A stretch of DNA of 42,633 bases from Ruminococcus sp. (GTDB lineage Bacteria; Bacillota; Clostridia; Oscillospirales; Acutalibacteraceae), in NCBI GenBank assembly GCA_017458105.1, contig JAFTGC010000013.1, positions 1-42,633 on the forward strand, in the 5' to 3' direction. The notes beneath the pieces were generated by a model. The model made no database searches and was not told where the DNA came from. It saw only the letters and a program-made list of their open reading frames with translations. A program made the translations under genes and the position numbers. Positions 10,388-35,574 of the stretch are shown one piece after another. Every line of letters starts with the position of its first letter. Positions within the stretch are counted from its first letter, which is position 1.

Positions 10388-12112
10388 TTATTTAAGCGAA
10401 ACAAGATATTTCTGTATTGCCGTGCAGTCCTTTATATTGATTCTTCCGTCCTGATTATAGTCTGCATTCGCATAACCGACAGCACTCAAATCAGCATCTA
10501 AAATTACATATTTCTGAATAGTTGAGGCATCCGCAATGTTGACAACTCCGTTGTTGTCAGCGTCCCCCAAAAGTGTTAGTGCCGATTCGGTTGTTAGTGC
10601 TTTTATAACCAGGTTTCCTCCGATGTCATCATTTTCTTCAATTTTGTAATAGTCCATAACATCCTGAACCTTGCCGTTATAGTAGACATAGCTTGATTCT
10701 TTTTTTGAGTCAGGTTTAAAAATAAGTTTTCTTGAGCTGTTTGTAAGCCATTCGTCAACACCCACGGTATTAGGGTCTGTTTTTGTGTTTTCGGTTTTCA
10801 TTTTTACACCAATGCCTGCTTTGCTTTGTTTAAGTTCAAATTTGCCGGTGTCAACATTTATGTATCCGCTGTAATCAACTTTTCCCGATGCAAGCTCCTG
10901 CCATTTTGAAGTATCGTTTGTCGGGGTTTTGCCGTCATCTCCCACCGGTATGTAGTAGACGGTGTATTCATTGCCTATGCTCTCGGTTTCAAAAATAACC
11001 TTGTCCAAAAATTCAGGATTAGCGTTAAAATCAAAGGTGTTGATATAGGTTATTTCTTTGTATCCTTTTTGAGATAAAAAGTCAAATTCGCAAATAGCAC
11101 CAAAGGTTTCTGCCTGGTAAAAATGGTCAAATCCGGTGTTTTTTACATAGTCTGTTATACAGAAAGTAGGGGAGAATTTATTACTGAACAGAGTTGCGTC
11201 CTCGTATGAAATCCAGAAATATCCGTTATTGTCATTGTAGTCACCCCAAGTGTTTCTGCATAGCCATGCACCGTCATTTTTTGGTGTAAAGGTATCCTGA
11301 TATTCTTCGGTGATTCCCTGCTGAATGTCTTCTTCGGTAGGAGTAACCCAGTCTTTTACAGTGAATTTTTCTTTGCTGAAGTTGTCGTCCCAACCGATAA
11401 TGCTGATGGAATGACCGTTTACGCTTGTTGGAAAATTAGGGCAGTAGTAGGTTGTTCGTCCGTTTGTTTCAAAACTTTTGTCGCTGTGGTAGCTTGCAGC
11501 AACTGCTGCATAATCCATAATGCACTTTTTGATTGTGTCCTTGTCACTGCCGTCAAGGTACATTATTCCGGTTACGCCAAAGTCAATTGTTTCAGGTTCC
11601 ACAGGTTTAAAAAGACTGAAATCTGAACCGAACGGCATAACACTCTCTTTGACTGCACCCGAACGGCTGATGAGGTATCCCGTAGCAATCCATGAATAGC
11701 CACCGTCTTTTTCATATGTTCTATGCCAACCGGTTCCGTCACTTCTTGTTGCCCCCCATGCGTCAAGGTGAGCAGTCGAGAGCCAGCTTGATGAGGTGTT
11801 GTCTATGTCTTTATTTTTTATCATAAGTGATTCCAAAGCGGAAAGTCCGCTGAAAGCCCAGCAGGATTGTGTAACACCTTGGTTCCTTACAGGTGTAACA
11901 TAACCCTTTTCAAGCGAGCTGTAAGAGTCTGGAATTTTGCTTGAATCAACATCAAGCGAGGTTAGCTCCGTGTCAATATGAGCTTCTACGCTTCCGACAT
12001 CTGTCGACGCATTGCTTGTGTTGGTGTCTATAACAGCGGCACTTGCATTAAACGGCAAGGCAGAAATTGTCAAGGCAGCCGTTAAACCTATTGTGGTCAA
12101 TAGCTTATTCAT
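10388..12112 (-). CDS. Secreted papain-family (C1) cysteine protease with C-terminal dockerin
   Basis: 574 aa. A signal peptide (MNKLLTTIGLTAALTISALP, cleavage near ASA) is followed by a short pro-region. The C1 protease domain has catalytic C84 (NQGVTQSCWAFS), H234 (VNGHSISIIGWDD) and N287 (LCRNTWGDYN). A beta-rich domain of about 200 residues follows. The last 65 residues form a type I dockerin with two calcium-loop repeats: DADNNGVVNIADASTIQKY and DYNQDGRINIKDCTAIQKYL. The dockerin implies docking to a cohesin scaffold on the cell surface or on other secreted proteins, as in cellulosomes and the R. bromii amylosome. ATG at 12112 has GGAG upstream; a TTG three codons earlier is too close to it. 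Target protein unknown. Confidence 0.93.
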   Translation of the reverse strand: MNKLLTTIGLTAALTISALPFNASAAVIDTNTSNASTDVGSVEAHIDTELTSLDVDSSKIPDSYSSLEKGYVTPVRNQGVTQSCWAFSGLSALESLMIKNKDIDNTSSSWLSTAHLDAWGATRSDGTGWHRTYEKDGGYSWIATGYLISRSGAVKESVMPFGSDFSLFKPVEPETIDFGVTGIMYLDGSDKDTIKKCIMDYAAVAASYHSDKSFETNGRTTYYCPNFPTSVNGHSISIIGWDDNFSKEKFTVKDWVTPTEEDIQQGITEEYQDTFTPKNDGAWLCRNTWGDYNDNNGYFWISYEDATLFSNKFSPTFCITDYVKNTGFDHFYQAETFGAICEFDFLSQKGYKEITYINTFDFNANPEFLDKVIFETESIGNEYTVYYIPVGDDGKTPTNDTSKWQELASGKVDYSGYINVDTGKFELKQSKAGIGVKMKTENTKTDPNTVGVDEWLTNSSRKLIFKPDSKKESSYVYYNGKVQDVMDYYKIEENDDIGGNLVIKALTTESALTLLGDADNNGVVNIADASTIQKYVILDADLSAVGYANADYNQDGRINIKDCTAIQKYLVSLK

Positions 12113-12201
12113 AATACTCAATACTCCTTTTTAAAATTTTCTTGATATATTAAATAACATTATATCAAAATTAATTATATAAGTAAAGAATATAAACAGT
12201 A

Positions 12202-18712: not shown

Positions 18713-20347
18713 ATGAAGACTTTAAGCAAAAAAGCGTTAGGACTTCTTTTGTCTGTACTTATGCTGTGCACAATGATGACAGTAGGCTGCTATTCTGTAA
18801 TAGCTGCAACTACAGATACAGTAAGTTCCGCTGCAACATCCGTAGAGGGTGAAACAATTTATTTTAAGAACACCTCAGGTTGGAGTTCTGTCGCTTGTTA
18901 TATGTGGAATGATTCCTCAAAACAAAACAATGCAAGCTGGCCGGGTGTAGCTATGACAAACGAGGGCAACAATATTTGGTCGCTCAATGTTAAGTCAGGC
19001 TTTGATATGATTATCTTCAATAATAACAATCAGGGTGCACAGACAGACGATATTTCTTACCCCGGCGGTGCTCATATATATGAAAGCGGCTCATGGAGCG
19101 ACTACAATCCTGCCGGTACAACAGCACCTCAGCCTCAGTCAACAACAGCGGCACCTAGCGGTTCCTTTGCGGTTTACTGTAAGTCATCAAAAGCAACAAG
19201 TATGAATTGCTATATGTGGAACGGCAGCACTGACACTAACGCAGGCTGGCCTGGTGCGCCTATGACAAAGATTGATGACCAGGAAGGCATTTGGGAATAT
19301 ATTGCTGCAAAATCATTTAGTAAGATTATCTTCAATACAGGCGGAGACAGTGATAAAACTGCTGATTTAGATAATAAAGGCGACGGCTACATTTACAACT
19401 TTGATTCACAAAAGTGGGAAGAGTACGATCAGAATCCTCTCCAGCTCAGAGCATTCCAGGGCGATATTGATTCTCCTCAGTATATCGGCAGCCAGATTAA
19501 GTTCTCAGTAACAGGCAAGTCTGAATCTCCTGTAATTGAATATCAGTTCTCAGTTGACGGTTCAGTAGTTCAGAGCTATTCAACAAGCAACTCATTTGTA
19601 TGGAATGCAACAAAGGTCGGTACATACAAAATTACAGTTGATGCCAAGGACGGCAACGGCGAAACTAACCAGAAGACTTTAACTTATGAGATTAAAGACC
19701 CTTCTAACGAAACAGCTCCTGTTTTCCTTTCTTCCGATCCTGCAACAAATAATCAGGTTCTTCTCAATGCAACAACAAATGTGAAGATTAATGCAGCCGG
19801 CGGTAATACAGGTACAAAGCTTCTTTTCTATAAGTATGTTGTAAAGGACCCAAGTGGCACACAGCTTAACACTGCTTATTACACACTCAACAATTCTTAT
19901 AGCTTTACACCAAAAACACAGGGTGCTTATACTGTAGAGGTTTCCGTACAGGGCAGTGATAACCAGACAGTTACAAGGTCTGTAGTTTACAATGCTGTAA
20001 GTAAGCTTGACCCTACCACTTCAACTCAAAAGACAACTGCAACTACAGCTACAACAGCCACAACTGCTACTGTTCCTACATCATCCTCAGCAACAACCCC
20101 AACAACAGCTTCAACACCAACTCAGACATCTTCAACACAGCCATCAACAACTCCTGTTAAAATTATTCTCGGCGATGCTGATGATAATGGTATTGTAAAT
20201 ATCCGTGATGCAGCTGTTATCCAGCACTATATTAACAGAAGCTGGACCGGAGCATTTAACTCAAAGAATGCCGACTATGACGGCGATGGTTCTATAACCA
20301 TTAAAGATGCAACAGCCATTCAGACTGCTCTTGCCGGTATCAAATAA
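18713..20347 (+). CDS. Secreted starch-binding protein: two CBM26-like modules, two Ig-like domains, dockerin
   Basis: 544 aa with a signal peptide (residues 1-31, cleaved near VIAATT). Module 1 (about 48-132) and module 2 (about 152-240) are homologous and carry the starch-binding pattern CYMWN...WPG.PMT...W......IIFN, as in CBM26. Two beta-sandwich domains follow (about 241-330 and 332-428), then a Thr-rich linker (430-480), then a type I dockerin (484-544) with loops DADDNGIVNIRDAAVIQHY and DYDGDGSITIKDATAIQ. There is no catalytic domain, so its role is probably to bring starch to a cohesin-based surface complex. It is reminiscent of R. bromii amylosome Sas-type binding proteins, though the exact orthologue cannot be named. 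The amylase gene follows. Confidence 0.92.
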   Translation: MKTLSKKALGLLLSVLMLCTMMTVGCYSVIAATTDTVSSAATSVEGETIYFKNTSGWSSVACYMWNDSSKQNNASWPGVAMTNEGNNIWSLNVKSGFDMIIFNNNNQGAQTDDISYPGGAHIYESGSWSDYNPAGTTAPQPQSTTAAPSGSFAVYCKSSKATSMNCYMWNGSTDTNAGWPGAPMTKIDDQEGIWEYIAAKSFSKIIFNTGGDSDKTADLDNKGDGYIYNFDSQKWEEYDQNPLQLRAFQGDIDSPQYIGSQIKFSVTGKSESPVIEYQFSVDGSVVQSYSTSNSFVWNATKVGTYKITVDAKDGNGETNQKTLTYEIKDPSNETAPVFLSSDPATNNQVLLNATTNVKINAAGGNTGTKLLFYKYVVKDPSGTQLNTAYYTLNNSYSFTPKTQGAYTVEVSVQGSDNQTVTRSVVYNAVSKLDPTTSTQKTTATTATTATTATVPTSSSATTPTTASTPTQTSSTQPSTTPVKIILGDADDNGIVNIRDAAVIQHYINRSWTGAFNSKNADYDGDGSITIKDATAIQTALAGIK

Positions 20348-20383
20348 CAAAAATAGTATTTTATGACGGTGTTATCCGTTAAC

Positions 20384-20427
20384 ACGCATCTGTCTGATAG
20401 TTTTTATTAAAAATCGGACAGATGCGT
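20384..20427 (+). terminator. Hairpin after the starch-binding protein gene
   Basis: A 15-bp stem (20384-20398 with 20413-20427, one wobble pair) has a 14-base AT-rich loop. The T-run after it is very short, so it may terminate only partly. Confidence 0.55.
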
Positions 20428-20485
20428 TTGGTGTAAAAGAATTAGTTACAATTAAATAAATGAGAATTTAAAAGGGAGTTGAACT

Positions 20486-22873
20486 ATGATCCAATTTAAG
20501 AAAATTATTGCCTTATTGATGGTTATAGCAGTTGCTGTTTCGGTAACTGCAGTTGGTTCAGTGGCAGTTTCTGCCGCAACGGAAGATAAGTCAGCTACCG
20601 CTGATGCAAATTCCGATGTTTCAAAGGGAATTACAATTCACTACAAGAGTGATGTTCAGCCATATGTATATTATTGGAACTCACTTCCTGAAAATATAGA
20701 GGTTGAATACCCTGGTGCAAAAATGACTCTTGATACAAGTCAAGGGGAGAACTGGTATACTTACGAGTTTAAAGATGTTACTAAAATAAACCTTTTATTT
20801 ACAGACAAAGATGGCAAACAGCTTTCAAAGGAAACAACAAGAAAAACCGGTGAGTGGTGGTACCTCAACAATGTGTGGAGACGCTCCATCGACCCTGACC
20901 CTGTTTCTTCAATTGACCCGCGTGAGGATTCAATCTATTTTGTAATTACAACAAGATTTTTTGACGGTGACACAGGCAACAATGTACATTGTTGGGATGA
21001 TACTAAAGCAAACAACCCTGACAGCGACCCTGCATGGAGAGGCGATTTTAAGGGCTTGGCAGATAAACTTGATTATATCAAAGCTCTGGGTTTTTCAGCA
21101 ATTTGGATTACTCCCGTTGTAGAAAATGCTTCGGGCTATGACTATCACGGTTATCATTCAATTGATTATACCAAGGTTGATTCCCGTTACGAAAGTGACG
21201 ATTTTGATTATCAAAACCTAATTGACGAAGCACACGCTAAGGGTATGAAGATTATTCAGGATGTTGTATGGAACCATACCGGTAACTTTGGCGACGCAAC
21301 ACTTTGCCCGCTTTTCACAAAGGATTACAACGCTGACTTAAGCAACCTCAAGGAGTCTATGATTCCAACCGACTATCTGCTCAAAACTTACGGTCTTAAC
21401 AGTGCCGAGGAATATTGGGCTCAGCCTGATGCAAAGCAGTATAGCGAAAGACTTATGCTTATGAAAAACACAAATGCTTCGGGTAATAATACAACCAAGG
21501 CTCACCCGGGTGAGGATGATTACGGCACAGAAAAGTTGTCAAACAGCGATACTTATAACGCAAACAATTATTGGCACTCCGGATATTTTCAGAGTCTTAA
21601 CTGGGACGACTGGACATGTAAATATGCCCAGATTGCAGGCGATTGTGTTGACCTGAACACAGAAAATCCTGCAGTTGCAGAGTATACAGTTGATGCGATG
21701 TCTAACTATATAAATATGGGTGTTGACGGTTTCAGAGTTGATACAGTCCGTCATATTTCAAGACTTTCGCTCAATATGATGTACAACAAGCAGATTATGG
21801 ACGCAGCTTCTGCAGCAGGAAGAACAGGTTTCTATATGTTTGGAGAAATTTGCTGCAGATATACTCAAACATGGTATAGAGATCACGCTTGTGAGTCTGT
21901 TCCGTTCTATACATGGGATGAAACAGATACAAAATATGCAAACGCATGGAGTTGGGATACCGACGCAAATGCTGTCAATAACAATATGAACCTTACATTT
22001 GATCATTATATTGACAATGACAACACTGCAAAACAGCCAACTTCAACAAATGCACTTCTTGACGGTATTAATTATCATACAACGGATTCCTCAAAGGCTT
22101 CGGGAATGAATGCAATTGATTTTACAATGCATTGGTCGTTTGACTCAGCAAGCGGAGCTTTTGGTGCGGCTAAGAATGAGGATAAATATTTTAATGATTC
22201 AACATACAATGTTGTTTATGTAGATTCTCACGACTATGCACCTGACAATTCTCAGGCAACAAGATTTATAGGCGGCACATCAACTTGGGCGGAAAATCTT
22301 GACCTTATGTTCACATTCCGTGGTATTCCTTGTCTTTACTACGGTTCTGAGGTTGAGTTCCAAAAAGGTGTTGTAATTGATAAGGGTCCTGAAATTCCTC
22401 TTTCACAGTCGGGCCGTGCTTATTTTGGCGATAATATTGAAGGCGAAGTAAATGCTACAGATTTCAGTGAGTATACAGCAAGCGGTGCAGTTGCCGATAC
22501 ACTCAACAATCCTCTTGCCAAGCATATTACAAAGCTTAATAAAATTCGCCGTGCTGTTCCTGCTCTTCAAAAGGGTCAGTACACAGTAAGCAGTAACTAT
22601 GTAAGCGGTAATATGGCTTATATCAGAAGATATACTGACAGCGATACTGATTCACTGGCACTTGTTTCTGTAAGCGGTTCTGCTACATTCAAGGGTATTC
22701 CTAACGGTAAGTATATTGATGCAGTAACAGGTGATGTTAAAACTGTTACAGACGGCACACTTTCCGTAAGCTCAATTTCCAAGTCGAATATGAGAGTTTA
22801 TGTATGCTGTGCAGACGGTTTCACCGGCATAAACGGTGCAATCGGCGAAACAAATCTTACTTATCTCAAGTAA
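20486..22873 (+). CDS. Secreted GH13 alpha-amylase with N-terminal starch-binding module
   Basis: 795 aa. A signal peptide (1-31) is followed by a CBM26-like module (about 48-132: IHYKSDVQPYVYYWN, YPGAKMT, WWYLN). The catalytic barrel starts near 148. Region I is D259VVWNH264, region II GVDGFRVDT with nucleophile D419, region III YMFGEIC with acid/base E454, region IV VDSHD with D583. Region IV has Ser where most amylases have Asn (VDNHD). A C-terminal beta-domain ends at GETNLTYLK. There is no dockerin or anchor, so the enzyme is freely secreted or binds starch by its own module. AAGGGAG precedes the ATG. It sits downstream of the dockerin starch-binding protein. Confidence 0.94.
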   Translation: MIQFKKIIALLMVIAVAVSVTAVGSVAVSAATEDKSATADANSDVSKGITIHYKSDVQPYVYYWNSLPENIEVEYPGAKMTLDTSQGENWYTYEFKDVTKINLLFTDKDGKQLSKETTRKTGEWWYLNNVWRRSIDPDPVSSIDPREDSIYFVITTRFFDGDTGNNVHCWDDTKANNPDSDPAWRGDFKGLADKLDYIKALGFSAIWITPVVENASGYDYHGYHSIDYTKVDSRYESDDFDYQNLIDEAHAKGMKIIQDVVWNHTGNFGDATLCPLFTKDYNADLSNLKESMIPTDYLLKTYGLNSAEEYWAQPDAKQYSERLMLMKNTNASGNNTTKAHPGEDDYGTEKLSNSDTYNANNYWHSGYFQSLNWDDWTCKYAQIAGDCVDLNTENPAVAEYTVDAMSNYINMGVDGFRVDTVRHISRLSLNMMYNKQIMDAASAAGRTGFYMFGEICCRYTQTWYRDHACESVPFYTWDETDTKYANAWSWDTDANAVNNNMNLTFDHYIDNDNTAKQPTSTNALLDGINYHTTDSSKASGMNAIDFTMHWSFDSASGAFGAAKNEDKYFNDSTYNVVYVDSHDYAPDNSQATRFIGGTSTWAENLDLMFTFRGIPCLYYGSEVEFQKGVVIDKGPEIPLSQSGRAYFGDNIEGEVNATDFSEYTASGAVADTLNNPLAKHITKLNKIRRAVPALQKGQYTVSSNYVSGNMAYIRRYTDSDTDSLALVSVSGSATFKGIPNGKYIDAVTGDVKTVTDGTLSVSSISKSNMRVYVCCADGFTGINGAIGETNLTYLK

Positions 22874-27369: not shown

Positions 27370-27398
27370 TTGCAATATTTTACCTGCTATGTTATAAT
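27370..27398 (+). promoter_or_regulatory. Promoter of the cobalamin-riboswitch transcript
   Basis: TTGCAA (27370-27375) and TATAAT (27393-27398) with a 17-base spacer; start predicted near 27405, immediately before the riboswitch. Confidence 0.7.
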
Positions 27399-27420
27399 TA
27401 TTCTACAAATTAAATAGTAA

Positions 27421-27605
27421 TACCTCGGGGGAAATACGGTGAAAATCCGATGCAACTGCCATTACTGTGATGGGAACATACCCTAAGTCAGATTACCCGA
27501 TGTATTCAGGTTAATTGCTTTTGGGTAAAGAAAAGTTTAGCCGTTGCAGTATGGGATAACTGCGTGTTATGCAAGGTTTAAAGTTTTGTACTTTGGATCA
27601 TTGTC
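27421..27605 (+). promoter_or_regulatory. Cobalamin riboswitch
   Basis: The core matches the cobalamin riboswitch consensus: ACGGTGAAAATCCGATGCAA at 27436-27455, then ACTGTGATGGG, then the B12-box-like AAGTCAGATTACCCGATG at 27485-27502. Downstream hairpins with a GCAGT/AACTGC stem could form the kissing-loop partner. A terminator follows 45 bases later as the expression platform. High B12 is expected to switch off the downstream secreted DUF4430-like protein. Confidence 0.88.
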
Positions 27606-27648: not shown

Positions 27649-27685
27649 AAGCTCCTTGCCCGGCGGCAAGGGGCTTTTAATTTTA
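27649..27685 (+). terminator. Riboswitch-controlled terminator
   Basis: A 12-bp stem (27649-27660 with 27665-27676, one G-U pair) is followed by T-rich sequence. It is placed between the aptamer and the coding region, as expected for transcriptional control. A further 9-bp inverted repeat at 27698-27720 lies between it and the gene. Confidence 0.8.
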
Positions 27686-27765: not shown

Positions 27766-29931
27766 ATGAAGAAAAAGTTACTTTCGGTTCTTCTGGCAGT
27801 GTGCATTGTTATTGTACCGTTTACAGTATTTGCTCAGGAAACCGACAGCGATGATTATGCGGGTTATCTATATTTATCTGTAGAACGCAACACTCTCGGC
27901 CAGGGCTTTATTCGTGAGCCTGAGAAGGTTGGTTACTACGAGGGCGAAAATCTCGCTCAGATTGTACAGAGATACCTCGGTGATGACGCAATTTTTTCAG
28001 GCAGTGATTCATCATTGTACCTTTCAGGTATTAACGATGGCGGTGAACCTGAGGGCTGGACAGAAAAGGATGTTCCTGCTGACATCTACAATTATGTAGA
28101 GGACTATATTGACGAGAGAGAGGACAGCGGTATCCTCGCAGAGCAGGATTACACACCTTTTTCCGGTTATACATTTTCAATTGATAACAACAGTATGAGT
28201 ACCTATGCAAGCAGCGTAGAATTGGGTGACGATACATCAACGGGCTCTGCTTACAAGGACGGTAGTGTTATCCGTATAATGTATACTATTTACGGTTGGG
28301 GCTTTGATGTTGGCTTTGGTTACGAAGGTATGGGATTTGAATGGGAATCATCCAATACATTTGCCGACAGAAGCGAGCTTATCAAGGCTGTTGCTGACAT
28401 CAATGCAAATGGTAAATCCGAAGAGTATGGCAAGGCTTATGATGACGCTGTTGCACTCCTCAGCCAGTGGAATATAACAGAAGATGATATTAATAAAGCT
28501 CTTGACAATCTTAAGGCATCAAAACCTTTTGACGGTTATCTCTATTTTACTGTAGAGCGTAATACCCTTGGTCAGGGTCTTATCCTAGAGCCTGTAAAGG
28601 TTGGTTATTTTGAAGATGAGAGCCTTGCAGCAGTTACCGAGAGAGCTCTCGGCGAGAAAAGCACCTACAAGGGCGACCTCTCTGCCTATTATCTTACAGG
28701 AGTGGTCGATGGCGGTGAGCCTGAAAATTGGACAAAGACAGATATTCCGTCCGATATTTTAAATGCAGTTGGCGGTGCCAATGAAATAGATAAAAGAGCA
28801 GTTGCCGATACACTCTCTTCATTCGATTATTTCAGCCAGTCCGGCTATATGTTTACAGTTGACAATACAAGTTTAAATGCGGGTGCAGGTTCAATCTACC
28901 TTGGTGAGGATAGTTCCAAAGGAAATTGTTTTGAAGACGACAGCGTTGTTCGTGTTATGTATACCGTTTACGGTTGGGGCGAAGATGTTGGAGTTAGTTT
29001 TGGATATTTCAAGTTTGATACAACCAATACTTTTGCCGACAGAAGCGAACTTATCAAGGCTGTTGCTGACATAAATTACGAGGGTACTTCGGCAAATTAT
29101 GGTGAGGCATATACATATTCCGTAAAGCTCCTCAACACTTGGAATGTATCAGAAGAAGAGATTGATACAGCACTTTACGCACTTCAAAATTCGGATAAGC
29201 AAACCACTACAACAGCTTCTGTTCCTACAGAAACAACTGCTACAGAAACAGCAACTATTGAAACAAAACCTAGCGTAACAACTGAACCTGTTGTTACAAC
29301 AACCGAGCCTGTTGCTACAGAGTCAACTCCTACAGAAACAACAGCTGTTGTTCCAACTCAGCCTACAACAAAGACAACTGTTCCTACAGCACCTACAACA
29401 AAGAAGGTTAAGGCTACAAAACTTACACTTAATAAGTATAATAAGACACTCAATGCCGGCAAAACATTTAAACTCACGGCTACAGTTAAGCCTACCAACG
29501 CAACAAACAAGGCTGTCAGCTTTACTACAAAGAACAAAAATGTTGTTACAGTCACCGCTAAAGGTAAGGTTACAGCTAAGGCAAAGGGTACAACTTATGT
29601 AACAGTAAAGACAAAGGACGGCTCTAATCTTTCTGCAAAATGTAAATTTACAGTTAAACAGCCTGTTAAGAAAATTGTCATCAAAAAAGGCAAAAAGAAT
29701 GTAACAGGTAAAACTATCACACTCAAAAAGGGTGGTAAATTAACGCTTAAAGCGACTGTTTCTCCATCAAACGCCAACAAGAAAACTGTAAAATGGTCAA
29801 CATCAAGAAAAAATGTTGCCACAGTTAAAAATGGCAAGGTTACAGCCAAAAGCAAAGGTAAAACCGTAATTAAGGCTGTATCAACTGACGGTTCTAATAA
29901 ATCAGCAAAGGTTACTGTTAAGGTAAAGTAA
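27766..29931 (+). CDS. Secreted protein with two DUF4430-like repeats and two BIG2 domains; probable corrinoid-binding surface protein
   Basis: 721 aa. A signal peptide (1-23, ending VFA) precedes two homologous repeats of about 220 residues (32-250 and 256-475). Each has a beta-rich part beginning YLYxxVERNTLGQG and a DUF4430-like part (SGYxFxxDN...DGSVIRIMYTIYGWG), then a helical NTFADRSELIKAVADIN segment. A Thr/Pro-rich linker (about 476-560) and two bacterial Ig-like (BIG2) domains of very basic composition finish the protein. No anchor is visible; the lysine-rich BIG2 domains may bind wall polymers. DUF4430 is the transcobalamin C-terminal-like domain family. With the riboswitch directly upstream, cobalamin capture is the best inference. 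GGAG precedes the ATG. Confidence 0.85.
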   Translation: MKKKLLSVLLAVCIVIVPFTVFAQETDSDDYAGYLYLSVERNTLGQGFIREPEKVGYYEGENLAQIVQRYLGDDAIFSGSDSSLYLSGINDGGEPEGWTEKDVPADIYNYVEDYIDEREDSGILAEQDYTPFSGYTFSIDNNSMSTYASSVELGDDTSTGSAYKDGSVIRIMYTIYGWGFDVGFGYEGMGFEWESSNTFADRSELIKAVADINANGKSEEYGKAYDDAVALLSQWNITEDDINKALDNLKASKPFDGYLYFTVERNTLGQGLILEPVKVGYFEDESLAAVTERALGEKSTYKGDLSAYYLTGVVDGGEPENWTKTDIPSDILNAVGGANEIDKRAVADTLSSFDYFSQSGYMFTVDNTSLNAGAGSIYLGEDSSKGNCFEDDSVVRVMYTVYGWGEDVGVSFGYFKFDTTNTFADRSELIKAVADINYEGTSANYGEAYTYSVKLLNTWNVSEEEIDTALYALQNSDKQTTTTASVPTETTATETATIETKPSVTTEPVVTTTEPVATESTPTETTAVVPTQPTTKTTVPTAPTTKKVKATKLTLNKYNKTLNAGKTFKLTATVKPTNATNKAVSFTTKNKNVVTVTAKGKVTAKAKGTTYVTVKTKDGSNLSAKCKFTVKQPVKKIVIKKGKKNVTGKTITLKKGGKLTLKATVSPSNANKKTVKWSTSRKNVATVKNGKVTAKSKGKTVIKAVSTDGSNKSAKVTVKVK
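27859..29190 (+). repeat. Tandem internal duplication (two repeats of about 660 bp)
   Basis: Repeat 1 (about 27859-28515) and repeat 2 (about 28531-29190) encode homologous 220-residue units. Blocks such as the one encoding ADRSELIKAVADIN (about 28360-28405 and 29035-29080) are almost identical in DNA, showing fairly recent duplication or gene conversion. Confidence 0.8.
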
Positions 29932-29945
29932 TCTTATAATCAAAA

Positions 29946-29977
29946 AATGCACCCATTGCACTTGCTATGGGTGCATT
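29946..29977. terminator. Hairpin between the DUF4430-BIG2 gene and the next gene cluster
   Basis: A perfect 11-bp stem (29946-29956 with 29967-29977) begins 15 bases after the stop codon. A T-run follows only on the minus strand (six T). On the plus strand it is probably an mRNA 3'-end or partial terminator. Confidence 0.5.
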
Positions 29978-29990
29978 ACGGTATTATAAT
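29962..29990 (+). promoter_or_regulatory. Possible promoter of the cobalamin-uptake cluster
   Basis: TTGCTA (29962-29967) and TATAAT (29985-29990) with a 17-base spacer. The predicted start (about 29997) would coincide with the 5' arm of a leader hairpin (29997-30007 with 30031-30041, one mismatch). Confidence 0.5.
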
Positions 29991-30066
29991 ATATTGTGCT
30001 GACTTCCGACACAATATGGTATGTTATGTGGGAAATCAGCATATTCGGCAAAATTTGGAGGTTAAA

Positions 30067-30336
30067 TTGGATAATTTAACAAAAGAACAGTGCGTTGTGC
30101 TCATAAATAAAAAATTCAGAATATTAGGACGCTTACCCAAAAAATCTGACTTTGACCCTTACACTGTTATGATGATAAAGTCCCACCTCGGTCCTTGGCC
30201 GAGGGCTTTGGAAGAAGCAGGCATAAAACCCAAACGGGACGACGGTTATTTTGAACGCAAACAAGCAAAGCGTGAACGCAACAAGCAACGCAAAAGAGGA
30301 TATAACAATGATAAAATTTCTGAAAACGATAAATAA
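30067..30336 (+). CDS. Small basic protein with an HNH-endonuclease-associated-repeat-like motif
   Basis: 89 aa. GGAGG lies 5 bases before a TTG at 30067, the best supported start; an open frame runs further upstream but crosses the leader. The centre reads KFRILGRLPKKSDFDPYTVM, then MIKSHLGPWPRALEEAGIKP. This resembles the homing-endonuclease-associated repeat (G-R-x-P-x-x-x-D-F-D...F-G-s-W-x-x-A-L-x-x-A-G), a small helical DNA-binding unit. A strongly basic tail (KRERNKQRKRG) follows. It overlaps the next gene by 29 bases. A nucleic-acid-binding regulator for the cluster is possible; the function is not known. Confidence 0.7.
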   Translation: MDNLTKEQCVVLINKKFRILGRLPKKSDFDPYTVMMIKSHLGPWPRALEEAGIKPKRDDGYFERKQAKRERNKQRKRGYNNDKISENDK

Positions 30337-31855
30337 TTTAATCTCAATCTTGCTTGTTGTAACTATTACAGCGGGATTTTTTGCAGAGAATATAACTGCT
30401 GTTCAGGTTAGTTACAAAACAGCAATACAGCAGACTGCTAAACTGTTTTTATCTCAATCTGTGCCGACAAGCGGAACAACAGACGGGGAATGGAAGTTGA
30501 TAGGGCTTGTGCGTTCAGATGTTGATGTTCCTAAAAGCTATACCGATGGTTACTACAGCAATGTTTCAAAAATAGTTGAGGAAGCAAAGGGCGAGCTATC
30601 CACCCGAAAATACACTGAATATTCAAGGGCAATTCTCGGCATTACTGCAACGGGCAGAGATGCACGCTCGGTGTCAGGTTATGACCTAGTCAGCCCCCTT
30701 GCTGACTACGAAAAAGTAACCACACAAACTATAAACGGCACGGCATGGGCACTTATTGCACTTGACAGTAACAATTACGATATTCCTAAAACCAACGCTA
30801 AAACTCAAACAACCAGAAGTCTGCTTGTTCAGCACATAATTAACGGACAGTTTGATGACGGTGGCTGGGCAATAATGGGCAGTAAGGGTGATATTGACAT
30901 TACGGCAATGATAATTACTTCGCTTGCTCCTTATTATAAAGAAAACTCGGTTGTCAAGGCGTCGGTTGATAGGGGCGTACAGTTTTTAAGTAAAAATCAA
31001 AATGACAGCGGAGCTTACACAAGCTGGGGAATAGACAGCTCTGAGAGTATATCTCAAACTATAGTTGCCCTCTGTGCACTCGGCATTAATCCAAATACCG
31101 ACAGTCGGTTTATAAAAAACGGTAACAGTCTTGTGGAAGCATTGCTGAAATTTTACACCGACGGCGGGGGTTTCAGCCATACAAAGGGTGACAGGTACAA
31201 TCAGATTTCGGCAGAGCAGGGTTTGTATGCACTGGTTGCCTATCAGCGTTTCCTGGAGGGTAAGACTTCACTTTTTGATATGACAGATTTATATACCAAA
31301 CCTAAGGATACTAAAAATGAAATATCGTCAAAACCTACAGTCCATTCAACAACAGAACATATTTCTGTAACAGAAAAAAACAAGTCAAAAAATTCTAAAT
31401 CCACAAAAAGTAAATCAAGTAAGAGCAATAATTCCAATAAAAATTCTGCACATACTTCTTCCGCAAAATCCTCAGATTCGGACAGCGTCAGCTCTTCATC
31501 TGTTGAAAAAAGGTCTGAAATAAACGACATCGTAACATCTTCGACTGAGCCGTATGCTTCCGGCAAAAAACAGACGGATAAACCTAACGACAGCACCGAA
31601 AACAGTAGTCAAAGTTCAACCGAAAAAAATTCCCCAAAAAATACGACAGAGAAAACAATTGAAAAAAACAGTGACAATAATACAAAACCAGTGCTTAAAG
31701 AAAATTCATTGGAAAATTTTGAAAAAAATAGTGTTGTCGAAAATACAAACAGACGCAAAACCATAATATTTATAATTCTGGCTGTATTAGCTTTGGCTAT
31801 TGTTGCGTTTCTGATAATTAAATTCAAAAAATCTAAAAAAAGCGATAAAACATAG
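30308..31855 (+). CDS. Membrane-anchored alpha/alpha-barrel-like protein (prenyltransferase-repeat/intrinsic-factor alpha-domain-like)
   Basis: 515 aa. A signal peptide (1-33) precedes about 300 residues with terpenoid-cyclase/prenyltransferase-type repeats: NGTAWALIALDS, DDGGWAIMG then DIDITAMIITSLAPY, SGAYTSWGIDSSESISQTIVALCALG, DGGGFSHTKGD then AEQGLYALVAYQRF. The G-G-W/F...D-x-x-x-T-A-x-x-x-x-A-L pattern is also that of the N-terminal alpha6/alpha6 barrel of intrinsic factor and transcobalamin. A Ser/Lys-rich linker (about 340-480) reaches a C-terminal transmembrane helix and lysine tail, so the barrel is displayed outside the membrane. ATG at 30308 has AGAGGA upstream. It lies 4 bases before the DUF4430 gene. 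Confidence 0.85.
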   Translation: MIKFLKTINNLISILLVVTITAGFFAENITAVQVSYKTAIQQTAKLFLSQSVPTSGTTDGEWKLIGLVRSDVDVPKSYTDGYYSNVSKIVEEAKGELSTRKYTEYSRAILGITATGRDARSVSGYDLVSPLADYEKVTTQTINGTAWALIALDSNNYDIPKTNAKTQTTRSLLVQHIINGQFDDGGWAIMGSKGDIDITAMIITSLAPYYKENSVVKASVDRGVQFLSKNQNDSGAYTSWGIDSSESISQTIVALCALGINPNTDSRFIKNGNSLVEALLKFYTDGGGFSHTKGDRYNQISAEQGLYALVAYQRFLEGKTSLFDMTDLYTKPKDTKNEISSKPTVHSTTEHISVTEKNKSKNSKSTKSKSSKSNNSNKNSAHTSSAKSSDSDSVSSSSVEKRSEINDIVTSSTEPYASGKKQTDKPNDSTENSSQSSTEKNSPKNTTEKTIEKNSDNNTKPVLKENSLENFEKNSVVENTNRRKTIIFIILAVLALAIVAFLIIKFKKSKKSDKT

Positions 31856-31859
31856 AATA

Positions 31860-32405
31860 ATGAAAAAAGATATAATGGCAATTTTTGCTGTGGTAATAAT
31901 TGTAATTGTTTTGATTATGGGTACAGACTTCCAGACTGTGGAGGAGTATTACCTCACCCATACAGAGGACATAACCGATGACAGCAAAACTGTATTTATG
32001 ACAATAGAATGTAAAACCATACTAGACAATATGGAACAACTTGAGCCAAATTTGGAGGAGTTTGTGCCTGAAAACGGTGTTATTCTTAAACGCACGGAGT
32101 ATGTTCTTCGTGAGGGTGACACTGCCTTTGATATGCTTGAGCGTGTTACCAAAAGCAATAAAATAAGCATGGAATACAGCGGCAGTGATTCTAATCAATA
32201 CGGTACAGCCTATATTGAGGGGATAAACTATCTTTATGAATTTTCTTGCGGAGAATTATCAGGTTGGATGTACAGCGTCAACGGCGAGTTCCCACGCTAT
32301 GGATGTTCAGCCTATAAACTGAAAGACGGCGACGAAATTGTTTGGAGCTACACCTGTGACCTTGGCAGGGACGTGGGCTGTGAATGGGAGGGTACTTATG
32401 AATAA
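31860..32405 (+). CDS. Membrane-anchored DUF4430 (transcobalamin C-terminal-like) protein
   Basis: 181 aa. One N-terminal transmembrane signal-anchor (MKKDIMAIFAVVIIVIVLIM) is followed by an extracellular DUF4430 domain: FMTIECKTIL near residue 40, LREGDTAFDMLERV, YGTAYIEGINYLYEF, then LSGWMYSVNGEFPRYGCSAY and LKDGDEIVWSYTCDLGRDVG. In intrinsic factor and transcobalamin this fold is the beta domain that closes over cobalamin bound to the alpha barrel. The barrel-like protein is encoded 4 bases upstream, so the two could form a split two-part receptor. There is no clear ribosome-binding site; translation is probably coupled. It overlaps ecfT by 8 bases. Confidence 0.88.
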   Translation: MKKDIMAIFAVVIIVIVLIMGTDFQTVEEYYLTHTEDITDDSKTVFMTIECKTILDNMEQLEPNLEEFVPENGVILKRTEYVLREGDTAFDMLERVTKSNKISMEYSGSDSNQYGTAYIEGINYLYEFSCGELSGWMYSVNGEFPRYGCSAYKLKDGDEIVWSYTCDLGRDVGCEWEGTYE

Positions 32406-33288
32406 TAACAGTGCGTTTGCAGCTATTCATCCAATGGTACTGTTGCTTTATTTCATTGGGGAAATAGTAATAACTATGTTCAGCAGTGACCCTGTGGTTT
32501 TGCTCTGCTCGTTTGTCGGCTCGGTGTTGCTTTTTGCCATGCTCAGCAGTTTAAAGCAGTTTTTATCCGACCTTGCATTTTATCTTCCTATGTTGGTTTT
32601 AATAGCCGTTATAAACCCGCTTTTTTCGCACAACGGAGTTACTCCTCTGTTTTTTATGAACGGCAACGCTGTTACACTTGAGGCAATTTTGTACGGTTTC
32701 GATATTTCGCTTATGCTGATTTCGGTGGTGTATTGGTGCAAGTGTTTTAGTATAGTTATGACAACCGATAAATTTCTTTACCTTTTTGGCAGAGCAGTGC
32801 CTAAACTTTCGCTTGTACTTTCAATGGCACTTAGGTTTATTCCTCTTTTTCGACGCAAGCTGAAAGAATTCAGAGCGGTTCAAGGTGCTGTGGGGCTATA
32901 CTCGCAAAAGGGATTTGTAAACAAAATTGCAAGCGAACTAAAGGTTTTTTCAGCACTGATTGGTTGGGCGTTGGAAAACTCCGCCGATACGGCAAATTCC
33001 ATGAAGGCAAGGGGTTACGGTCTAAAGGGCAGAACACACTTTTCGCTTTTTAAATTCAGGGTCGGCGACATTATTTTTTTGATTTTTTCAGCAGTATTTT
33101 TTGTTGTTACAACTGCCGGTATAGCTGTTGGTCTTACTGATTTTTATTTTTATCCAAGAGTTGCAAAACTATGCTTTGACAGTTTAAAAACTGCGGTGTA
33201 TTCGGCATTTTTTGTTCTTTCGGTTATGCCGTTTGTTGTTCAGCTAAGGGAGGTTGTTGTATGGAAATACTCAGTGTCAAAAATTTAA
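32398..33288 (+). CDS. ecfT: ECF transporter transmembrane component EcfT
   Basis: 296 aa, CbiQ/EcfT family. Multiple hydrophobic helices are followed by the coupling helices that grip the ATPases, with the family motif SMALRFIPLFRRKLKEFRAV and NSMKARGYGLKGR (Ala-Arg-Gly signature). ATG at 32398 has GGGAGG 6 bases upstream and lies inside the end of the DUF4430 gene. The next gene, the fused ATPase, overlaps it by 28 bases. Its presence as part of a cobalamin cluster suggests a dedicated (group I) rather than a shared module. Confidence 0.93.
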   Translation: MNNNSAFAAIHPMVLLLYFIGEIVITMFSSDPVVLLCSFVGSVLLFAMLSSLKQFLSDLAFYLPMLVLIAVINPLFSHNGVTPLFFMNGNAVTLEAILYGFDISLMLISVVYWCKCFSIVMTTDKFLYLFGRAVPKLSLVLSMALRFIPLFRRKLKEFRAVQGAVGLYSQKGFVNKIASELKVFSALIGWALENSADTANSMKARGYGLKGRTHFSLFKFRVGDIIFLIFSAVFFVVTTAGIAVGLTDFYFYPRVAKLCFDSLKTAVYSAFFVLSVMPFVVQLREVVVWKYSVSKI

Positions 33289-34907
33289 GTTTTACCTATC
33301 CCGAATGTACGGAGAGGGCATTAAATAACATCAACCTTACCGTAAAAGAGGGCGAATTTGTTGTACTGTGCGGAGCTTCGGGCAGCGGAAAAACCACCTT
33401 ACTGCGTATGTTTAAAAAGGAGCTTGTTCCGCACGGCGACAGATCAGGAGAGGTGCTGTTTAAAAACACCGAGGTTACGGAAATATCCGATAGGCAGTCA
33501 GCCGAAAAAATCGGATTTGTTTTCCAAAAGCCTGACCAGCAGATTGTCACCGATAAGGTATGGCACGAGCTTGCCTTTGGGCTTGAGAGTCTTGGCTATG
33601 GTTCGGATTATATCAGACTGCGTGTTGGCGAGATGGCAAGCTACTTTGGTATAACCTCAATTTTTAGGAATAAAACCTCACAGCTTTCGGGCGGACAAAA
33701 ACAATTGCTCAACCTGGCCTCGGTTATGGCAATGTCGCCTGATGTTCTGATTTTGGATGAGCCGACTTCTCAGCTTGACCCTATTGCCGCCGCCGACTTT
33801 ATTGCTACAATAAAAAGGTTGAATACAGAGCTGGGTTTGACGGTGATTTTAACTGAGCACCGCTTGCAGGATGTCTTTCCGATAGCGGACAAGGTTGTTG
33901 TAATTGAAAAAGGAAGTATAATCGGAACGGGTAGCCCGGGGACGGTGTGCGAAAAGTTAATTAATCACAAAATTTCTGTTGGATTTCCTTCTGCGGTGCG
34001 TATTTGGCAAGGTTCACAGCTTGGCGGAAAGTGTCCGCTTACAGTAAAAGAGGGCAGAGAATTTATTAATTCAACATTTCAGGCGAAAAATGTGGAAATA
34101 TCAAGCACTGCTATTTGTACAAAAAACGCTGTTGAACTAAAAGAGGTTTTTTTTAGATACGAAAAAACCTCAGATGATATTATTAAAGGCTTGTCGTTGT
34201 CCGTCAAACAAGGAGAACACTTTTGTATATTGGGTGGCAACGGCTCGGGCAAAACCACAACGCTTAAGGTAATAAGCGGAATTTTGCGTAATCACCGTGG
34301 TAAAGTGTTGATTAATAACGAAAATGTCACAAAAAAATCTGCTGATAAAAGGGGAACAGCATTACTTCCACAGAATCCTGACGAGATTTTTTTGAATTCT
34401 TCCGTGCGTGATGATTATATTCAACTGCTTGCTGTGAGAGGAATTAAAGGAACAACTGCCGAACAAAAAATAGATGAAATAATTGAGAGTTTAGACATAG
34501 CCCATCTTATGGAAAAGCATCCATATGACCTTAGCGGTGGTGAACTGCAAAAGACGGCTATGGGTAAAATCTTGCTCAATGAGCCAAAAATTCTTTTACT
34601 TGACGAGCCTACAAAAGGGCTTGACGCATATGCAAAGCAATCGTTGAAAGATATAATAAAACAACTGAAAAGCACCGGTGTTACCATCATCACCGTTACA
34701 CATGATGTTGAGTTTGCTGCCGAAACTGCCGACAGGTGCGGTCTGTTTTTTGATGGTGAGGTGTTGTCGGTTTCTGTTCCGCAGAAGTTTTTCTCAATGA
34801 ATAATTTTTACACAACATCAGCATCACGCATAGCACGGGAGCGCTTCAAAAATGCTGTCACAGTTGAACAAGTTCTTAATGCAATGGGGGTTAAGAATGA
34901 AAGGTAA
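33261..34907 (+). CDS. ECF transporter ATPase, EcfA1-EcfA2 fusion
   Basis: 548 aa with two complete ABC domains in one chain. Domain 1: Walker A GASGSGKTT (38-46), signature LSGGQKQ, Walker B VLILDEPTSQLDP. Domain 2: Walker A GGNGSGKTT near residue 327, signature LSGGELQK, Walker B ILLLDEPTKGLDA. Most ECF systems have two separate ATPase genes, so the fusion fixes the heterodimer stoichiometry. GGGAGG precedes the ATG within ecfT. The next gene, the S component, starts 10 bases before this stop. Confidence 0.94.
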   Translation: MEILSVKNLSFTYPECTERALNNINLTVKEGEFVVLCGASGSGKTTLLRMFKKELVPHGDRSGEVLFKNTEVTEISDRQSAEKIGFVFQKPDQQIVTDKVWHELAFGLESLGYGSDYIRLRVGEMASYFGITSIFRNKTSQLSGGQKQLLNLASVMAMSPDVLILDEPTSQLDPIAAADFIATIKRLNTELGLTVILTEHRLQDVFPIADKVVVIEKGSIIGTGSPGTVCEKLINHKISVGFPSAVRIWQGSQLGGKCPLTVKEGREFINSTFQAKNVEISSTAICTKNAVELKEVFFRYEKTSDDIIKGLSLSVKQGEHFCILGGNGSGKTTTLKVISGILRNHRGKVLINNENVTKKSADKRGTALLPQNPDEIFLNSSVRDDYIQLLAVRGIKGTTAEQKIDEIIESLDIAHLMEKHPYDLSGGELQKTAMGKILLNEPKILLLDEPTKGLDAYAKQSLKDIIKQLKSTGVTIITVTHDVEFAAETADRCGLFFDGEVLSVSVPQKFFSMNNFYTTSASRIARERFKNAVTVEQVLNAMGVKNER

Positions 34908-35574
34908 TTATATAAAACTTCTTGTTCTGTGCCTTGGTGTGCCTATTATCGTTGCTATGGGAGTGTTTTTGTTCAGCGACCGTGCCTATGCTTGGGTTTC
35001 GCTTTGCGTGGCGGTTCTGGCAATTGTGCCTATATTTATATCTTTTGAAAAGGGCAGTCATTCGTCAATAAGGCTTGTTATACTGGCGGTGATGATAGCA
35101 CTTTCGGTTGCAGGTAGGTTTGTTTTTGCGTGGCTGCCGCATTTTAAGCCTGTCACCGCAATGGTAATTATAACCGGAATGTACCTCGGTTATGAGTGCG
35201 GATTTGTCTGCGGTGCGTTCACTGCATTGATTTCAAATTTCTACTTTGGGCAGGGCCCGTGGACGCCGTTTCAAATGTTTGCGTGGGGGATTGTCGGGCT
35301 TGTGAGTGGAGTGCTGGCAAAATATTTTGAAAAGTATGTTTTGGTTTTGTTTGTGTACGGTGCTGCCGCAGGTGTGCTGTATTCGTTTATACTTGATGTG
35401 TGGACAACGCTGTGGTGGGACGGCAGTTTTAATTTTACTCGTTTTATTGTGAATATAACAACGGCGGTTCCTGTTACAGCAATTTATGCAATTTCAAATG
35501 TGATTTTTCTGTTTTTATTATCAAAACCGCTTGGCAAAAAGATAAAAAGAATAAAAATAAAATACGGAATATAG
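34897..35574 (+). CDS. ECF transporter substrate-binding (S) component, probably for cobalamin
   Basis: 225 aa with about six transmembrane helices. The start at 34897 follows GGGGGTT; an upstream in-frame extension overlaps the ATPase and is rejected. The core has GMYLGYECGFVCGAFTALIS and FYFGQGPWTPFQMFAWGIVG, the S-component region that contacts EcfT. Similar proteins next to DUF4430 genes have been proposed as cobalamin (CbrT-like) S components; the specificity here is an inference from the riboswitch and DUF4430 neighbours. The cluster ends here. Confidence 0.85.
   Translation: MKGNYIKLLVLCLGVPIIVAMGVFLFSDRAYAWVSLCVAVLAIVPIFISFEKGSHSSIRLVILAVMIALSVAGRFVFAWLPHFKPVTAMVIITGMYLGYECGFVCGAFTALISNFYFGQGPWTPFQMFAWGIVGLVSGVLAKYFEKYVLVLFVYGAAAGVLYSFILDVWTTLWWDGSFNFTRFIVNITTAVPVTAIYAISNVIFLFLLSKPLGKKIKRIKIKYGI

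Follow-up and report, generated by a model that had tools for sequence, protein, structure and literature searches.

The animal proteins intrinsic factor and transcobalamin are membrane-free, ECF importers are usually described as operating without a soluble binding protein, and the folds of the Bacteroides proteins BtuG and BtuH differ from the toroid and DUF4430 folds discussed here. In transcobalamin, B12 is sandwiched between a toroid and a beta domain (PMC1796856). Burroughs et al. (2007) predicted that transcobalamin-like beta-grasp and toroid proteins encoded in CbiO/CbiQ operons act as bacterial B12 scavengers (PMC1796856). This transcobalamin-like SLBB (soluble-ligand-binding beta-grasp) clade comprises surface proteins of low-GC Gram-positive bacteria, in which the beta-grasp and the alpha/alpha toroid occur in either order, and its hosts are usually without key B12 synthesis enzymes; propeller and immunoglobulin-fold partners are also mentioned, the propellers being read as possible tethers (PMC1796856). 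Among importers, CbrT of Lactobacillus delbrueckii is a demonstrated B12 and cobinamide importer subunit with a solved structure (6FNP); its ECF module is shared with other S components, and CbrT itself is encoded in nrdJ-cbrS-cbrT-pduO (PMC5997447). In Bacteroides, BtuG and BtuH capture B12 on the cell surface for an importer (PMC6143338; PMC8941943).

The window analysed here, the 42,633-nt contig JAFTGC010000013.1 of Ruminococcus sp. (GCA_017458105.1), encodes on one strand a barrel (toroid) protein, a DUF4430 protein, EcfT, EcfA-A' and an S component, in this order (Table 1). The stop codon of the barrel gene and the ATG of the DUF4430 gene are separated by 4 bases (31856-31859), and the ECF genes follow directly 3' of the latter with overlapping reading frames; EcfT, two ATPase halves and a CbrT-related S component are all present. 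An earlier, sequence-only reading had placed two genes 4 bases apart with an ECF importer next to them, and the coordinates, strand, spacing and domain matches agree with this.

Table 1. Features of the operon region in the window
Feature	Position	Strand	Evidence and remarks
Promoter-like site, just 5' of the riboswitch	27370..27398	+	TTGCAA-17-TATAAT, 10/12, TG before second hexamer; consensus match only
Cobalamin (AdoCbl) riboswitch aptamer, sub-gathering	27406..27545	+	RF01482, 43.1 bits (gathering 50), E 2.1e-5, whole model 1-149
Intrinsic-terminator-like hairpin, strong, between aptamer and first gene	27649..27676	+	12-pair stem, 4-base loop, T-rich tail
Secreted surface protein, two Big_2 domains and weak DUF4430-like repeats	27766..29931	+	Big_2 E 1.2e-19; signal-like helix; DUF4430 E 0.032, below cut-off, second repeat identified by eye
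Small HNH_repeat protein, overlapping the barrel gene start	29947..30336	+	PF18780 E 4.3e-9
Surface alpha/alpha-toroid (barrel) protein, C-terminal membrane helix	30308..31855	+	Barrel = residues ~41-323
DUF4430 (transcobalamin-type beta-grasp) protein, N-terminal membrane helix	31860..32405	+	DUF4430 E 3.1e-21
EcfT	32338..33288	+	CbiQ E 4.2e-9; ATG at 32398 likely start (ORF reading)
EcfA-EcfA' double ATPase, one chain	33261..34907	+	TIGR04520 364.6 bits, cut-off 315
CbrT-related S component	34852..35574	+	6fnp_A E 4.7e-7; ATG at 34897 likely start (ORF reading)

As in animal intrinsic factor and transcobalamin, a predicted toroid is followed by a DUF4430 beta domain (DUF4430 being found in TCN proteins, PMC4350170), but the C-terminal beta domain of the animal proteins is present here on a separate chain, and instead of one secreted chain the window encodes two, each anchored in the membrane, next to the genes of an ECF importer. 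With the SLBB clade the locus shares a surface or secreted beta-grasp, the association with a toroid, an operon with CbiO and CbiQ (PMC1796856) and, CobS being unmatched in the window's genome, a host without a B12 synthesis enzyme. It differs from that clade in that the pair is split on opposite anchors. The sections of the 2007 account drawn on here mention neither the two-helix link of the fused form nor an S component related to CbrT nor a link to riboswitches, a word that occurs 0 times (PMC1796856). Like the L. delbrueckii system, the locus has an ECF module and a related S component (PMC5997447), but here the module is encoded together with the S component and the surface proteins. The likeness to BtuG and BtuH lies in surface proteins that would capture B12 for an importer; those, unlike the window pair, are Gram-negative lipoproteins (PMC6143338; PMC8941943). 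The clamp idea is not new, because scavenging by toroid and beta-grasp proteins in CbiO/CbiQ operons was already proposed by Burroughs et al. in 2007 (PMC1796856); what is added to that prediction, relative to the open-licence literature, is the split form and further B12 evidence.

The barrel protein consists of an N-terminal signal-like segment, the toroid region, a Ser/Thr/Lys-rich linker and, near the C end, a single strong hydrophobic segment (hydropathy 3.57); a Gram-positive anchor model stayed below its cut-off (13.1/20 bits). In Pfam, the whole protein matched two families below their cut-offs, SQHop_cyclase_C (E 1.4e-5) and Prenyltrans (E 0.0035), and the ectodomain by itself scored 26.4 bits (cut-off 26.1). 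In the DUF4430 protein, the hydrophobic segment occupies residues 4-22. The PDB search with the DUF4430 profile gave nothing convincing, and among solved structures neither this profile nor that of the barrel matched intrinsic factor or transcobalamin. The animal toroid family, PF01122, was not seen when six barrel proteins were searched to E 10, nor is it among the 25 commonest of the 126 families listed for fused relatives. No sequence match to either the animal family or the animal structures was found.

Barrel and DUF4430 domain occur on one chain in 8/40 family loci, a count that is not a rate because some of these loci were picked for long frames. Among 80 fused loci selected by a fused query, all match DUF4430 at E <=1, the lowest value being 2.6e-22, and all have two hydrophobic segments with a loop of 6-16 residues between the barrel and DUF4430; unlike the animal proteins, neither the window pair nor these fused relatives form one soluble chain. 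Ruminococcus flavefaciens is among the species with a fused relative. Profiles from fused relatives retrieved the window barrel (E 9.7e-60) and the window DUF4430 domain (E 3.2e-45), both far past chance. ECF genes lie within 9 kb in 37/40 family loci and 15/20 phylum loci, and a barrel plus EcfT or S component is found near the DUF4430 gene in 27/40 and 14/20, respectively; several loci combine DUF4430 and ECF genes with no barrel nearby. In 11 genomes the DUF4430 gene has no barrel gene close by: six of them carry one elsewhere, and none was found in the other five, one of which (G039) is only 72% complete; in four of the five, the operon encodes a beta-propeller protein. The toroid/beta sandwich is therefore not obligatory, and the barrel, judged by gene content, is dispensable.

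The sequence-only reading of the pair as a split, membrane-anchored analogue of intrinsic factor and transcobalamin was thus upheld in part. The partnership of the two domains is borne out by their union on one chain in many relatives, the opposite-anchor geometry by the two membrane helices and short loop between the domains of the fused forms, and a corrinoid cargo is supported, on sequence grounds, by the CbrT kinship of the S component, the riboswitch position and the absence of CobS. The idea is not new, however, the pair does not always accompany an ECF importer (27/40 family and 14/20 phylum loci), and barrel-less versions exist.

When the S component was searched as a single sequence against 177,635 PDB sequences, CbrT was retrieved (6fnp_A), the remaining matches being only antibody chains at E >=0.15. 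The profile of 19 S-component relatives matched CbrT at E 1.7e-18, 4hzu_S at 8.3e-6 and a riboflavin S component at 0.019. In Pfam, the riboflavin-named family PF07155 was above its cut-off (E 3.4e-9), and the single NCBIfam match, to a folate-type model, was far under its cut-off (20.5/60 bits). CbrT is the closest solved relative, which supports the B12 reading.

The Rfam search of the window returned nothing at gathering scores. Apart from the AdoCbl match in Table 1, RF00174 scored 24.9 bits against 31.5 at 27378-27518; the site at 27406-27545 is the sole RF00174/RF01482 site at E <=0.001 in the window's genome (1.38 Mb, 83.6% complete). A genome of the same genus (G185) has the same core operon order with an 87.3-bit RF00174 match ahead of it. 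Chance is the less likely explanation for the window's match, because its placement, the flanking sites that resemble a promoter and a terminator, and the G185 operon all argue against it. The terminator-like hairpin is a probable expression platform, and the gene set is probably switched by vitamin B12. Promoter-like sites as such are frequent in the region (35 found, 21.2 expected).

The main survey covered 41 genomes, the window's and 40 relatives. Of the 41 cobalamin riboswitches found, 30 are on the same strand as a DUF4430 match and at most 8 kb upstream of it, and 11 are not near one; such a placement occurs in 29 of the 32 genomes with any riboswitch, and nine of the 41 genomes showed none. 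Seven of the 30 precede a second DUF4430 gene, on a contig other than that of the genome's best match. Among phylum loci, the DUF4430 gene is preceded by a riboswitch at a distance of up to 12 kb in 13/20. The B12-binding domain was found in 41/41 genomes and CobS, the sole synthesis enzyme searched for, in 2/41. The window's genome, 83.6% complete, gave no CobS match and has a single gene whose domains are those of B12-dependent methionine synthase.

The observations are the order of the genes, the domain matches, the kinship with CbrT, the placement of the riboswitches, the two-helix fusions and the missing CobS; B12 binding, the sandwich, the hand-over and the riboswitch action are inferred. 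The operon is best read, with a probability of about 0.7, as a cobalamin-repressed system for corrinoid scavenging and import, in which a toroid/DUF4430 clamp would serve a CbrT-related S component. In a cell short of B12, the riboswitch would allow read-through of the terminator. The toroid protein, held by its C-terminal helix, and the DUF4430 protein, held by its N-terminal helix, would then be neighbours on the outer face of the membrane. A corrinoid would be clasped between the toroid and the beta domain in the manner of transcobalamin and passed to the S component, whose transport cycle would be powered by the dedicated EcfT-A-A' module. The DUF4430 domain would be the constant hand-over part and the toroid the capture part, which may be fused, split, missing or perhaps substituted by a beta-propeller.

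By profile, the squalene-hopene cyclases, which are toroid enzymes, are the best known-structure relatives of the barrel (E 2.4e-16), which could be taken to mean that it is a terpenoid cyclase or prenyltransferase lying in the operon by accident. This is highly improbable, since the barrel has a signal and a membrane anchor, is fused to DUF4430 in relatives, adjoins a B12-type importer and has the conserved motif D-x-D-[VI]-T, not the cyclase motif DXDD. The Lactobacillus sakei ECF-type heme operon is said to contain DUF4430-like surface proteins. ECF heme systems do exist (PMC7299338; PMC7872071), but heme or another tetrapyrrole is an improbable main cargo in view of the cobalamin riboswitches at these operons and the CbrT kinship of the S component. 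A somewhat better case, though still a poor one, can be made for a different corrinoid in place of cobalamin as the preferred cargo, whether a precursor (cobinamide) or one of the other cobamides: cobinamide is also taken by CbrT (PMC5997447). Against this, CobS, which is required to complete cobinamide, was not found in 39/41 genomes.

The most serious alternative, although an unlikely one, is a corrinoid importer without a sandwich, where DUF4430 alone would bind or relay the ligand and the barrel would only tether, filter or bind some other ligand at the cell wall. It fits the operons lacking a nearby barrel (five of 11 such genomes being without any found), the propeller proteins in four of these operons and the units of riboswitch, small DUF4430 protein and S-like protein described below. 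Against it stand the barrel-DUF4430 fusions, the conservation of barrel residues throughout the set, for example H291 (a possible cobalt ligand), Q250, E246 and T199 in 25/25 sequences, and the use of both domains by animal transcobalamin (PMC1796856). A wider proposal, held tentatively and at less than even odds, is that in these bacteria DUF4430 is a general extracellular delivery adaptor for ECF importers, a constant dock for CbrT-related S components with exchangeable capture modules (a split or hairpin-tied toroid, a surface beta-propeller); the split pair might then act next to the S component as a clamp of two parts, opening and closing, and the fused form as a hairpin clamp. A barrel-versus-DUF4430 distance correlation of 0.72 was left unused, both domains being on one chain in that set.

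B12 is contested in guts and rumens, and its uptake by Firmicutes is, in our judgement, less worked out than BtuBCDF or Bacteroides BtuG/BtuH. If the scavenging and import reading is true, a relative of the human B12-absorption protein works on the cell surface of many bacteria of the Oscillospiraceae type. This would matter for competition between hosts and microbes and for the suggestion, made in 2007, that animal transcobalamin was acquired from Gram-positive bacteria, and ECF transporters would gain a directly testable substrate-delivery step.

A further set comprised 20 of 116 family genomes without a DUF4430 match in a single-sequence search (the barrel not included). The B12-binding domain was found in 16/20 of them (15 over the cut-off) and a cobalamin riboswitch in 13/20; of 15 riboswitches found, 14 were examined, and nine of these have immediately downstream a small DUF4430 protein missed by the search. 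This set is not a clean contrast because of both these counts, and B12 need does not separate genomes with and without a DUF4430 match. At one locus (L185), the riboswitch leads into EcfT-A-S, the DUF4430 gene not being seen beside it. In seven of the nine units an S-like protein follows the small DUF4430 protein, and one S-like protein from such units matches CbrT only (E 7.1e-7).

The toroid and DUF4430 genes lie in one compact unit on the + strand of the window (27.3 to 35.6 kb), in which a promoter-like site, a riboswitch match and a hairpin precede seven genes that overlap or are separated by gaps of no more than 15 bases. The sequence-only reading had described these two genes as 4 bases apart, directly followed by ECF genes, with their products anchored at opposite ends. 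Both genes and their 4-base gap were confirmed, and a hydropathy scan predicted a single helix in each protein, at the C end of the toroid and the N end of the DUF4430 protein; thus, that observation stands. A small HNH_repeat protein, possibly regulatory, is also encoded upstream in the operons of five of the 40 family loci.

Features of the window and of loci fetched from relatives (L-numbers)
Feature	Location	Strand	Remark
Promoter-like site	27370-27398	+	start of unit
AdoCbl riboswitch match	27406-27545	+	43.1 bits, below gathering score of 50; E 2.1e-5
Terminator-like hairpin	27649-27676	+	strong
Gene 1, secreted Big_2 protein		+	weak DUF4430-like repeats
Gene 2, small HNH_repeat protein	29947-30336	+	
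Gene 3, toroid protein	30308-31855	+	membrane helix at C end
Gene 4, DUF4430 protein	31860-32405	+	membrane helix at N end
Genes 5-7, EcfT, double EcfA, S component		+	in that order
HNH_repeat proteins of relatives	L032:7421-7696; L044:13423-13698; L056:2547-2957; L059:16229-16756; L062:4983-5282		
Propeller genes	L059:13759-15099; L060:6629-9391; L061:7516-9876; L063:1943-4696; L049:8084-9352 (propeller relative)		
Small DUF4430 + S units	L183, L184, L187, L188, L190, L191, L192		first ~1.5 kb after riboswitch
Very large proteins	L064:843-8684 (2613 aa); L159:1467-8897 (2476 aa); L162:1275-7283; L166:3740-8539; L172:3802-9111		

The operon is very likely to import a corrinoid, and the strongest new evidence on the cargo is the kinship of the S component, as judged by sequence comparison. 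In a single-sequence search of the PDB it matched CbrT (6FNP, E 4.7e-7), the S component that serves B12 uptake in Lactobacillus delbrueckii, the remaining matches being antibody chains alone (E of at least 0.15), while a profile of 19 relatives ranked CbrT (1.7e-18) above 4hzu_S (8.3e-6) and a riboflavin S component (0.019). Two results count against a B12 cargo: Pfam places the S component over the cut-off in the riboflavin-named family PF07155 (E 3.4e-9), and its sole NCBIfam match is a folate-type model, far under the cut-off. Heme is a rival to the corrinoid as cargo, since a heme ECF operon of L. sakei, described in AEM in 2020, reportedly encodes related surface proteins.

The riboswitch positions and the host genomes also speak for the predicted corrinoid import. 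Searches of the genome of the window, and of 40 family genomes picked because they had a DUF4430 hit, located 41 cobalamin riboswitches (39 with RF00174, two added by RF01482), 30 of which lie within 8 kb upstream of a DUF4430 hit on the same strand, against a rough chance rate of 0.0036 per riboswitch for that position. Seven of these 30 precede a second DUF4430 gene, on a contig other than that of the genome's best hit, and 11 of the 41 riboswitches lie elsewhere. Nine of the 41 genomes gave no riboswitch, and three of the other 32 had none in that position. Among the best-matching 20 phylum loci (window's own excluded; 55 of 299 genomes had a hit), 13 carry a riboswitch upstream of the DUF4430 gene, no more than 12 kb away. 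A B12-binding domain was found in all 41 genomes and a match to CobS, a B12 synthesis enzyme, in two; CobS was not found in the genome of the window (83.6% complete), which encodes the pterin, homocysteine and B12 domains of methionine synthase in one gene.

The barrel, as the toroid is also called, is dispensable rather than obligatory. At 29 of 40 family and 17 of 20 phylum loci a barrel is encoded no farther than 9 kb from the DUF4430 gene, some losses reflecting contig ends. Invariable co-occurrence of the pair with an ECF importer, a question left by the sequence-only reading, did not hold: barrel and EcfT or S component occur together at 27 of 40 family and 14 of 20 phylum loci. A search of the whole genomes of the 11 relatives without a nearby barrel found one elsewhere in six and none in five (G133, G123, G039, which is 72% complete, G035 and G087). 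The operons of four of these five encode a beta-propeller protein (PQQ_2 over the cut-off; surface location judged by eye), its gene directly preceding the DUF4430 gene in three and EcfT in the fourth. In the fifth, a propeller relative directly precedes the DUF4430 gene, and ECF genes were not found at this locus (L049). BtuG, which binds B12 in Bacteroides, has a propeller fold too.

Cobalamin riboswitches also occur in 13 of 20 family genomes earlier without a DUF4430 hit. At nine of the 14 places fetched, out of 15, the first gene encodes a small DUF4430 protein (over the Pfam cut-off) with a signal, lipobox or anchor by eye, directly followed in seven cases by a short S-like protein; EcfT or EcfA were not among the ORFs shown beside these seven units. 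CbrT was the sole PDB match of one S-like protein (E 7.1e-7), and a profile of all seven finds the S component of the window (E 1.6e-14), while a profile of operon-type S components finds just two of the seven; the five tested received no Pfam name. The remaining riboswitches lead into EcfT-A-S genes, no DUF4430 gene being visible alongside (L185), seeming cobalamin/tetrapyrrole synthesis clusters by eye (L181, L186) or genes including an ABC ATPase (L180, L182). From the barrel-less operons and the small units it looks as if the B12-type S component usually partners with the DUF4430 domain, not with the barrel.

Where both domains are present, they are likely to form a two-domain clamp. Of the 84 family genomes that had a hit, 40 supplied longer loci; most of these were strong matches, and a number had been picked for a long open frame. 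Eight of the 40 encode toroid and DUF4430 domain as a single chain, toroid first, the order also seen in the animal proteins. Among the 20 phylum loci, two have their best DUF4430 domain on the same chain as a barrel. When the fused alignment was used to scan the genome collection, 455 stretches encoding a relative came up, and the 80 kept, by construction those most similar to a fused query, are all fused; 78 of them have ECF genes on the same strand no more than 9 kb away. In all 80, the stretch that joins the toroid and its linker to the DUF4430 domain contains two hydrophobic segments, with 6 to 16 residues separating them. In the window pair the parts follow one another likewise, but with a gene break in the middle (toroid, linker, helix, short basic stretch, gene break, helix, DUF4430), as the opposite-anchor geometry predicts. 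On a weakly resolved tree of 74 DUF4430 domains, split and fused forms interchange in three steps, one of them forced by well-supported branches. Position 291 of the toroid (window numbering) is a histidine, H291, in 25 of 25 diverse barrels, and the matching-motif histidine, H277 of the fused L123 protein, is present in all 80 fused barrels; that it is a cobalt ligand is a guess.

From the observed gene order, hydropathy-based topology, kinships and riboswitch position we infer a probable sequence of events. Low B12 would allow expression of the operon, the surface proteins would catch the corrinoid, and the toroid and beta domain would close on it; the S component would then take it over, with EcfT and the ATPases powering the transport cycle.

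The central idea of the sequence-only reading, a bacterial analogue of intrinsic factor and transcobalamin, was arrived at independently and is a prediction published in 2007. In the portion of their paper available to us, Burroughs, Balaji, Iyer and Aravind (PMC1796856) define the SLBB superfamily, to which transcobalamin and intrinsic factor belong. They report such surface domains in low-GC Gram-positives, fused to an alpha/alpha toroid in either order; the operons as a rule also hold CbiO- and CbiQ-like genes, and the hosts usually do without key B12 synthesis enzymes. They propose B12 scavenging and transfer to animals. Transcobalamins carry DUF4430, according to PMC4350170. Relative to that portion of PMC1796856, the additions are the CbrT-related S component, the riboswitch link, the split pair with its two-helix fusion, the propeller in operons of barrel-less genomes and the small DUF4430 + S unit. 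The toroid and DUF4430 protein matched no animal protein among solved structures by sequence, and the animal toroid family PF01122 was not matched in six barrels tested, so these comparisons give no sequence evidence for membership of the animal family itself; the predicted pair is likely to work like that family's proteins.

Some proteins encoded near operons of this kind are very large and combine one or two barrels with one or two DUF4430 domains. At L077, L079, L094 and L101 an S component directly follows a fused toroid-DUF4430 gene, and EcfT or EcfA were not found in the 2.7 to 8 kb fetched after it. Elsewhere in the window (10388-12121 and 18713-22873), secreted cysteine-protease-like, carbohydrate-binding-like and alpha-amylase-like proteins are encoded, the first two kinds with C-terminal repeats that by eye resemble dockerins, as in Ruminococcus-type fibre and starch degraders.
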